Virus record (IMG/VR): IMGVR_UViG_3300020428_000095
Coordinates: 1-22,894 of that record
DNA from: a virus
Length of the DNA: 22,894 nucleotides
Direction: 5' to 3' (one strand)
The notes beneath the pieces were generated by a model. It made no database searches, was not told where the DNA came from, and worked only from the letters and a program-made list of their open reading frames with translations. Shown here piece after piece: positions 19,707 to 22,406 of the stretch (its first letter is position 1; each line of letters opens with the position of its first letter). The position numbers were made by a program, and so were the translations under genes.

Positions 19707-21365
19707 CTAAAATACTCCACTTCCTCTAGAACCTAAACCACGATTTCTACTGGTTCTTGCTCCTTGAGCTTCCCTTGCAGCTATCGTGTCTAAGAATGTT
19801 TGGTTTGATGGCTGACCAGAGACTACTCCCTGTACTCTACCACCTTTTGCTAAAGCATCACCAGAACTAAATAATGGTTCATTACCTATAGCATCGCTAA
19901 TATCCCCTTGTAAAGATTGACTTTTATCTTCTATTAATTTACTGCGTTGTTCAGCAAATGGAGATACATCGAATAGATCATCTCCTAATTTAAAACCACT
20001 AATACCAGCTTGTGCCGTATCTTTTAATGCACTTATATCTTTACCATAACCTCCAAGAACTCCTTCACCTATCTCTCTAACTCTTGATGTTGCTGCTGGA
20101 GTTTGAAAATCTATGGCTTGGTTAGCTGTTCTACCACCTGTAGGATTATAATTACCTCTAGCAACAGCAGAAGATATTTGTTTTCTAGCTGGAGCTGCAC
20201 GTTCTTGTACTATACTATTTATAATACTATCATCTAATGGATCGAAAGCATTACCAGTAAATACTTGATTTAATCTATTAGTAGCTTGTCCTCGTAGATT
20301 AGTAGTTTCATCATCTAATAATCCTTGGCCTAAAAAGTCAGAACTAAAAGCATTATTAAATTGATTCTGAGTGATATTATCACCAAGTTCTTGGTCTTGT
20401 CTTGTTAATCCTCTACGTATTATATCATTAAAGTATATATCACTTATGCCCGGATTAATTGTATTACCTTGTGTTTTTCCTATCAACTCTTCTAAAGCAG
20501 CTTGTCTGTTAAAAGCTCCGGGATTAATATTAGGATCTAATGTTTGTACTGGTGGAGCTGTTTGTCGTGGATCATTTCCATAATCAATATCAGGAATATC
20601 TTGAAAGTTAGAAAGATAATTTCCTTCGGCATCTCTATTTACTCCAAAAGACAAACCAAAACGATCTAAACTTCCTACTGGAGTTTCTCCTGTTAAACCA
20701 CTTAGTAAAGCATTACCTATTGTTGCTGGAGTTCCTAATGGTCCAGCCATCCAACTAGGAACAGCTATTCCCATTGCTTGATCCATAGTTAGGTTATCTC
20801 GTGCTCCATCTTTATTAAACAGCACATCTAATGCTTGTGGTCCCCATTTAGTATAATTAGGATTAGATGCATCTCTAAAAACATCTTGATTTTGTTGAAA
20901 ATCTTTGTTTGCTTGATCTATAAAATCATTAAAAGGTTGTGGTGCTGATAAAGATCCTTTAGATAAAGCAAAATCTGTAGCTTCTTGTAAAGCATCTCCT
21001 CTTACTCCACGATCTATTAAAGCACTTTGAAATCCAAGAACACTACCTCGATACTCATCTTTTATATCTGTAGTAAAGAGTCCTTGCAATGGTCCTTCTG
21101 GTCTTGAATCTACATATTGTTGAACTTCTGGAGGTAAAGCATTATATTCTGTTGTTCCTCCTGAAAGACCTTTATTTTTATATAATTGATCTTGTGCAGC
21201 TTGTTGACGAACTAATTCAGCCACATTTTGTTTAGCTTTTTGTTGTGCTTTAGCTTGAACGACTGAATCATTCCAACCAATATCATCCAACCAACCTTGA
21301 AAAGCATCCCAAGACAAATCTTCAGTGGCATCAGCTACATTACTTGGTCCATATGAATCAGCCAT
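19707..21365 (-). CDS. Large virion protein of unknown role (552 aa)
   Basis: ATG 21365 overlaps the lysozyme stop as TAATG. The 552-residue product starts with a Trp/Asp-rich segment (SWDAFQGWLDDIGWND), then a Gln/Ala-rich helix and long stretches rich in Asn, Asp, Gly and Gln with little predicted hydrophobic core. The C-terminal 40 residues are Gly/Arg-rich (GLGSRGSGVF at the end). No signal peptide or catalytic motif. It probably belongs with the neighbouring internal virion proteins; a tail or connector role cannot be excluded. Confidence 0.6.
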   Translation of the reverse strand: MADSYGPSNVADATEDLSWDAFQGWLDDIGWNDSVVQAKAQQKAKQNVAELVRQQAAQDQLYKNKGLSGGTTEYNALPPEVQQYVDSRPEGPLQGLFTTDIKDEYRGSVLGFQSALIDRGVRGDALQEATDFALSKGSLSAPQPFNDFIDQANKDFQQNQDVFRDASNPNYTKWGPQALDVLFNKDGARDNLTMDQAMGIAVPSWMAGPLGTPATIGNALLSGLTGETPVGSLDRFGLSFGVNRDAEGNYLSNFQDIPDIDYGNDPRQTAPPVQTLDPNINPGAFNRQAALEELIGKTQGNTINPGISDIYFNDIIRRGLTRQDQELGDNITQNQFNNAFSSDFLGQGLLDDETTNLRGQATNRLNQVFTGNAFDPLDDSIINSIVQERAAPARKQISSAVARGNYNPTGGRTANQAIDFQTPAATSRVREIGEGVLGGYGKDISALKDTAQAGISGFKLGDDLFDVSPFAEQRSKLIEDKSQSLQGDISDAIGNEPLFSSGDALAKGGRVQGVVSGQPSNQTFLDTIAAREAQGARTSRNRGLGSRGSGVF

Positions 21366-21811
21366 TAGCTTTTCCTAAATAAAATTTCTTCATCTTTTCT
21401 ACGCCTTACTAATCCTCTAAGAATCTTACCACCAGCCCTACGCCATTTCCAGAATTCATTAGCTGCTCCAGTAAAATCTTTTCTATTTAGTTTCATTCTT
21501 ATTGTACTACTTCTAAACTTTCCACTACCTACATTATATACTAAACAACAAACTGCTGAAAACTGATTTACCGTAAGTGGCTGCTTAACCAACCTTGCAA
21601 CGGCATTTTCAGTTTGGCGAAGTTCTCTTTTAAGTAAGTATTCTGCTTCGTCTTGGGTAATATCTCTATGATTGCGAGATAACCTAGAGTGATCAAGACC
21701 CCAAATAGAACCAAAACCGATAGTAGGTATACCAATAGGGTCGAGATAACACCGAAGACTACATCCTTCATATTTCTTAATAATTTCAATACCTTCGTCA
21801 TTAGTTCTCAC
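21365..21811 (-). CDS. T4-type lysozyme (GH24 endolysin)
   Basis: The start is GTG at 21811, overlapping the holin stop as GTGA, with GGAGG on the minus strand about 15 nt upstream. The 148-residue protein begins in the manner of phage lysozymes and has the catalytic spacing of T4 lysozyme: Glu15 in YEGCSLRCY, Asp24 in LDPIGIPT and Thr30, i.e. the same 9 and 6 residue intervals as T4 Glu11, Asp20, Thr26. TIGFGSIWG follows, and FSAVCCLVYNVGSGKF (about 88-103) is the usual second lobe block. There is no signal peptide, so it would need the holin encoded just upstream to reach the peptidoglycan. Confidence 0.92.
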   Translation of the reverse strand: MRTNDEGIEIIKKYEGCSLRCYLDPIGIPTIGFGSIWGLDHSRLSRNHRDITQDEAEYLLKRELRQTENAVARLVKQPLTVNQFSAVCCLVYNVGSGKFRSSTIRMKLNRKDFTGAANEFWKWRRAGGKILRGLVRRRKDEEILFRKS

Positions 21812-22173
21812 TTCTTAAATTGCCTTCCTCCAAACCAGAAAGCTAAGATACTAGCCCACATAGCCATAATCTGTTCATCCCAAGCAGCAACTAGTGCATC
21901 TCCGGGAGCAACACCATTTTGTATTAACAAATAGTAAGTTGTTACTTCTATTCCGATGAAGAGGGCCATAAATAAATAAGTAATAACAGGACGAACAGAA
22001 GCCCGAATAGCATTGACAAACCCCCCACCATCAAGAGAAGCATCATGCTCATGAATAGTTTCAACTTCTCGTATATTTGCATCAATAGCTGTTTTATCAA
22101 GTTGTATCTCAGCTTGTCGTGTCATTATTTCTAGTTCATGTTTCTTATCTGCCTTGTCTTGGAAATAATCCAT
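21808..22173 (-). CDS. Three-TM holin-like protein; N-terminus probably longer
   Basis: From ATG 22173 the product is 121 residues: a charged helical N-part (MDYFQDKADKKHELEIMTRQ), then SVRPVITYLFMALFIGIEV, a second hydrophobic stretch and AMWASILAFWFGGRQFKK. This matches the GTA_holin_3TM family, whose members end in a WFG.R motif. ATG 22173 has no good ribosome binding site. The frame stays open upstream to 22254, adding ILTLLGSVLGFGTSFLPRV, which looks like the family's usual N-terminal helix, but it contains no ATG, GTG or TTG. An ATC at 22230 lies 7 nt after GGAG. So either translation starts at that AUC or ribosomes slip -1 from the upstream gene at A AAA AAA (22230-22236). It is followed by the lysozyme with a GTGA overlap, the normal holin-endolysin pair. 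Confidence 0.8.
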   Translation of the reverse strand: MDYFQDKADKKHELEIMTRQAEIQLDKTAIDANIREVETIHEHDASLDGGGFVNAIRASVRPVITYLFMALFIGIEVTTYYLLIQNGVAPGDALVAAWDEQIMAMWASILAFWFGGRQFKK

Positions 22174-22223
22174 GACTCTTGGAAGAAAAGATGTACCAAA
22201 TCCTAGAACACTTCCTAATAATG

Positions 22224-22406
22224 TTAAGATTTTTTTGCTCCCTTCTTTTTTCTTTTAGGTTTTGGAACTGGAATATTCATATTCTCAGCAATAGGATGTC
22301 CTTGAGGTTTTTCTACAAAGAAGATCCAACGTAAGAAATCTTTAAATGATTTTATATCTTTATAAGTCATTGTTTTTCCTATCATTTTACTTAGGATGTG
22401 ATCCAT
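22224..22406 (-). CDS. Small basic-tailed protein upstream of holin (60 aa)
   Basis: Starts at ATG 22406, inside the end of the preceding coiled-coil gene (20-bp overlap); no obvious ribosome binding site. The 60-residue product has an amphipathic or partly hydrophobic middle (FKDFLRWIFFVEKPQGHPIA) and a highly basic tail (PKPKRKKKGAKKS). The last codons read GCA AAA AAA TCT TAA, so the frame contains the slippery heptamer A AAA AAA just before its stop and the holin frame lies -1 to it. It could be an independent membrane-associated peptide or the N-terminal part of a frameshifted fusion with the holin. Family unknown. Confidence 0.6.
   Translation of the reverse strand: MDHILSKMIGKTMTYKDIKSFKDFLRWIFFVEKPQGHPIAENMNIPVPKPKRKKKGAKKS

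Follow-up and report, generated by a model that had tools for sequence, protein, structure and literature searches.

The window, by which we mean the whole stretch of 22,894 nucleotides analysed here, comes from a marine phage (IMG/VR virus record IMGVR_UViG_3300020428_000095), and towards its end the minus strand carries a small upstream gene, a holin-like gene and an endolysin gene with the following features:

22224..22370, minus strand: upstream gene, probably of 48 residues; a single nucleotide separates its stop TAA (22226-22224) from the preceding holin start codon (ATCTTAA)
22237..22244, minus strand: putative ribosome-binding site of the holin, AAGGGAGC, with a spacer of 6 nt to the ATC; the nearest relatives have AAAGGAGC
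22230..22236, minus strand: A7 run, described in the first-pass annotation as a slippery heptamer; belongs both to the lysine-rich tail of the upstream gene and to the spacer that precedes the holin start codon
22228..22230, minus strand: proposed AUC start codon of the holin; NTG in most relatives, ATC in L001-L004 and L014, ATT in L005 and L081
22174..22230, minus strand: hydrophobic segment ILTLLGSVLGFGTSFLPRV at the N terminus, mean hydropathy 1.43; conserved throughout the family
21808..22230, minus strand: holin-like gene, 140 aa, from the ATC at 22230-22228 to the stop TGA at 21810-21808
21365..21811, minus strand: phage lysozyme (endolysin) gene, PF00959 E 5.2e-39, whose GTG start overlaps the holin stop

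The first-pass annotation had pointed out that the holin frame extends upstream of its first ATG with no standard start, and this proved correct. On the minus strand an in-frame TAA occupies 22257-22255, from 22254 onwards the frame is open, and its earliest NTG codon is ATG 22173; it reads KKKEGSKK after the TAA, then ILTLLGSVLGFGTSFLPRV from ATC 22230, and then MDYF. The A7 run (22236-22230) and a GGGAG motif (22242-22238) are likewise present as described.

The gene is called a holin on the grounds of its family and position. Read from 22230, the frame has a match to PHROG 6637 that spans residues 2-140 (E 1.4e-25), and it gives a weak, nearly full-length match to PF11351, GTA_holin_3TM (E 0.013), which stays below the cut-off of that family (16.4 vs 24.8 bits) and is matched at E <= 0.01 by 15 of 31 relatives. 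The predicted product has the anatomy of a holin, being a small protein with three hydrophobic segments, the first of which is the extension, encoded next to the endolysin gene. Its AlphaFold model (mean pLDDT 69.5, pTM 0.41) was too weak to be usable for a structure search. Codons 2-19 differ from those of relatives by 164 synonymous vs 47 non-synonymous changes, and the remainder of the gene by 865 vs 406, all counted against the window and uncorrected for relatedness. Together with the PHROG coverage and the conservation in relatives, this argues that the extension is real protein and part of the holin, evolving under constraint, as had been proposed.

A search of IMG/VR returned 118 relatives of the holin, of which 80 were kept, and start codons were compared by nucleotide-level alignment of 126 distinct sequences, with the window counted once. 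The N-termini of the homologues include the extension, and the codon aligned with ATC 22230-22228 is ATG in 113 of the 126, GTG in five, TTG in one, ATC in five and ATT in two; the position thus holds NTG in 119 sequences and ATC or ATT in seven, window included. In two separate scans for the N-terminal motif with ATH (ATT, ATC or ATA) directly before it, the same seven contigs were found; the counterpart scan with ATG, GTG or TTG, confined to the LTLLG...FQ(D/E) subgroup, gave 25 contigs. Down to 33% identity, relatives start at this column, with Met except in the ATH members and in the GTG-started L026, and in Pelagibacter phage Mosig EXVC030M, a distant relative, the gene is annotated from the same position, with ATG after AGGAG. 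Bacterial genomes gave no match for the ATH holins. The first-pass annotation had raised an AUC start at 22230, 7 nt after GGAG, as an alternative to a -1 frameshift, and the relatives start at precisely this codon. On the strength of these comparisons we give a probability of roughly 0.88 that the holin starts at AUC 22230-22228, rather than at ATG 22173 or via a frameshift. The start position is well supported comparatively, by its place in the alignment, its recurrence, its restriction to the holin and the constraint on the codons that follow.

L251-L253 and L255 also seem at first sight to have ATH starts, but in each an in-frame ATG lies directly or just upstream, and we discounted them. 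The divergent holins L252, L253 and L255 begin ATG-ATH-S-T-I/L-I-S-T and are one codon longer at the N terminus, so that in their branch the start position has moved by one codon.

The seven ATH starts occur in four upstream contexts. In the window and L001-L004 (context a) the ATC is kept throughout and overlaps the end of the 48-residue gene. The other three contexts are represented by one contig each: L005 (context b) reads AGGAGacataaa-ATT, L014 (context c) reads AGGAGGcgaac-ATC, and L081 (context d) reads GAGGAGGcttaa-ATT, where the TAA is the in-frame stop of an upstream 113-residue gene and touches the ATT. L207 and L219 are 94-95% identical to L081 in the holin and have the same upstream gene, yet start with ATG. 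In L005, L014 and L081 a strong Shine-Dalgarno (SD) sequence stands 4-6 nt before the ATT or ATC and no NTG lies between the in-frame stop and that codon; these three loci have no A7 run, and no overlapping upstream gene or frame that a -1 slip could fuse. The SD duplex at the window ATC, at -6.9 kcal/mol, is among the best 4.5% of internal positions, and for the ATH codons as a group the duplexes range from -6.9 to -11.3 kcal/mol, with spacers of 4-6 nt, within the best 0.1-4.5% of internal positions of these genes. We considered compensation of the unusual codon by a stronger SD and rejected it, as SD strength at the ATH loci does not differ from that of close ATG relatives (p 0.76).

The holin start also marks a module junction, seen at 22231 and upstream in the window and in L005, L006, L007 and L081. 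Between the window and L006 the holin is 88% identical, while the 200 bases before it are unrelated (24%), and L006 and L007 have the start region in common but different upstream genes.

Immediately upstream, the small gene had been described as encoding 60 residues and ending GCA AAA AAA TCT TAA. The end stands as described; the length does not, because the first 8 residues of the 60-codon reading frame have no counterpart in relatives, whose ATG sits at the methionine of MTYKD (22370), and the gene therefore probably encodes 48 residues. It is conserved at this place only in L001-L004. Its lysine-rich tail varies in L003 with KKGAKKS kept, and it is the KKGAKKS stretch that encodes the holin ribosome-binding site and start. 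A related small protein (distant kin MKFSDIKTFKD...) is encoded elsewhere in L007, L011 and L012. L189 has two copies of a gene related to the 110-residue one upstream of the window holin, and one of these copies has ACG at the aligned start and a GTG only further upstream in frame.

This arrangement raises the question of how ribosomes would reach the AUC. Initiation might occur mostly by re-initiation after the 48-residue gene, through translational coupling, and not by fresh SD binding, which would refine the AUC-start explanation and is compatible with it. The TAA that follows the ATC by 1 nt in the window and L001-L004 speaks for such coupling, as does the stop touching the ATT in L081, but in L005 and L014 the ATT or ATC has no adjacent upstream stop of a plausible gene. 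We regard re-initiation as the main route as a tentative proposal, and somewhat unlikely; judging from the arrangement of the genes, it may contribute in contexts (a) and (d), and could not easily do so in (b) and (c).

Translation from ATG 22173 would yield a 121-residue holin without the first helix, and hence without ILTLLGSVLGFGTSFLPR. This codon is the first in-frame ATG and is present in all seven ATH sequences. However, the earlier observation that it has no credible ribosome-binding site holds: its best SD duplex, at -2.4 kcal/mol, is about the median of internal positions, and an SD duplex is absent at its counterpart in L005, L014 and L081. Moreover, the codon is CTT or CTC in L011, L012, L013 and L022, the codons upstream of it are conserved as protein, and the PHROG 6637 match covers them. 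We consider a start at this ATG very improbable.

The first-pass annotation had favoured a programmed -1 frameshift on A AAA AAA that would fuse the lysine-rich upstream protein to the holin, and in the window and L004 the heptamer does lie intact in the correct frame, with the SD-like GGGAG just upstream. It is not kept beyond these two, however, being broken in L001-L003 (GCG AAA AAA), which share the TAA of the upstream gene with the window and L004, and absent from L005, L014 and L081, all of which have the same missing start. The 7-bp stem proposed downstream does not stand out from shuffled sequence, with 37 of 200 shuffles being as stable (z -0.84). The ATG relatives begin with Met exactly at the AUC position, with no fusion, and the upstream fusion partner is absent at this place in relatives other than L001-L004. 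As the AUC occupies the position of the normal AUG in most relatives, a frameshift is unnecessary to explain the missing start, and we find it hardly credible; from the alignment we judge the A7 run to be incidental. A base-count or assembly error in this run, or a decayed start in a dying gene, can be all but dismissed. Poly-A runs are error-prone, and L005, L014 and L081 are one contig each. Against this, a frame with the same missing start is found again in other IMG/VR contigs, in four upstream contexts; a different A count would fuse the two genes and not create an ATG; and every one of these sequences has an intact, constrained reading frame.

The history of the codon was followed on a tree of holin DNA from which the start codon had been excluded. 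The tree requires four NTG/ATH changes, in which gains are not separable from reversions to ATG, and at least two of the four are forced by well-supported branches. An AU test rejects the grouping of all ATH sequences in one clade (p 6e-57); L014 forms a long branch. On this tree the ATH state is clustered in one subgroup and labile within it.

The unusual start is peculiar to the holin. All other window genes compared start with ATG, GTG or TTG, and a general shift of start-codon use in these phages was discarded as an explanation. No ATH start was found among lysozyme relatives with an aligned start (93 NTG, 7 in-frame extensions), and at the ATH loci examined the lysozyme gene starts with ATG or GTG; 7 ATH starts in about 165 holins vs none among the lysozyme relatives gives a Fisher p of about 0.05. 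A screen of the other window genes upstream of their first NTG was uninformative, because close relatives align throughout. We ruled out a special initiator tRNA encoded by the phage, as a search of the window and of six ATH loci turned up no tRNA genes. Given the normal starts of the neighbouring genes and the lack of tRNA genes, the unusual start therefore belongs to the holin gene and not to the genetic code of the phage.

We propose that the GGGAG ribosome-binding site just upstream directs initiation at AUC 22230-22228 to give the 140-residue holin. The initiator tRNA would read the near-cognate AUC or AUU with a third-position mismatch, of the kind that IF3 rejects, and would place formyl-methionine there, such that the tryptic N-terminus of the product would read M-LTLLGSVLGFGTSFLPR. 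In the lineage of the window, the ATCTTAA overlap may in addition let ribosomes that finish the 48-residue gene re-initiate. Because AUC and AUU are disfavoured by IF3, the holin would be expected at a low, IF3-dependent rate and is probably made in small or regulated amounts; both IF3 control and low output are carried over by analogy from E. coli and Streptomyces. Such synthesis could in turn delay lysis, holins being thought to time the bursting of the host cell. A selected role of the start codon in lysis timing is possible, although we lean against it, and we are more doubtful still that AUC/AUU acts as a selected lysis clock in which IF3-limited initiation keeps holin low until late infection. 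If such a clock did exist, a late fall in free IF3 relative to 30S subunits would raise holin synthesis, and the phage would be timing lysis by reading the state of the translation machinery. The natural set of ATG, ATT and ATC alleles could be used to ask whether start-codon strength tunes lysis time.

The finding also has a practical side, in that gene callers limited to ATG, GTG and TTG would truncate the holin at its first helix or miss it. Annotation pipelines rarely call AUU or AUC starts, a caveat on the count in the following survey. Among 61,358 ancestral AUG starts, the part of a start-codon switch survey available to us reports a single switch from AUG to AUU, with no switch to AUC mentioned (PMC5622118). 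AUU and AUC starts are thus very rare, yet within this one phage group a single lysis gene has ATT or ATC repeatedly, while its neighbours do not.

Near-cognate starts as such are already known, and their recurrence in a phage holin is a variant of that. The gene infC starts with AUU in E. coli and with AUC in Streptomyces and is repressed by IF3 (PMC5472188), and in a reconstituted system a mismatched third start-codon position gave poor expression (PMC10158994). The likeness to infC lies in an AUU or AUC start on a gene whose dose matters; as in the infC type, ATT or ATC stands where orthologues have ATG, no usable NTG lies upstream in frame, and the ribosome-binding site is normally spaced. 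However, infC encodes a translation factor, whereas here a phage lysis gene is concerned, for which no autoregulation is implied and in which most relatives keep AUG. The sigR gene of Streptomyces, with a GTC start repressed by IF3 (PMC5472188), is likewise a gene harmful in excess with a non-canonical start, although codon and gene are others, and the IF3 repression shown for sigR would apply to the holin by analogy. Among the papers covered by our literature search for phage genes with AUU, ATT or ATC starts, there was no comparable holin case except the alleles of TcdE, a holin family protein of Clostridioides difficile; 4 of 44 strains have ATT in place of its first ATG (PMC6200909). TcdE, however, uses the downstream starts M25/M27 (PMC6200909), whereas no usable downstream start is evident in the window holin. 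As to the protein, a parallel is GTA_holin_3TM, which the window holin resembles in its weak, nearly full-length match, its place before a lysozyme gene and its three hydrophobic segments, with the differences that its score is under the Pfam cut-off and its holin function is predicted. The S holin of phage lambda has a dual-start motif, and the choice of start at its N terminus sets the timing of lysis. Lambda S has two nearby starts for this choice, whereas the window holin would have one weak near-cognate start.
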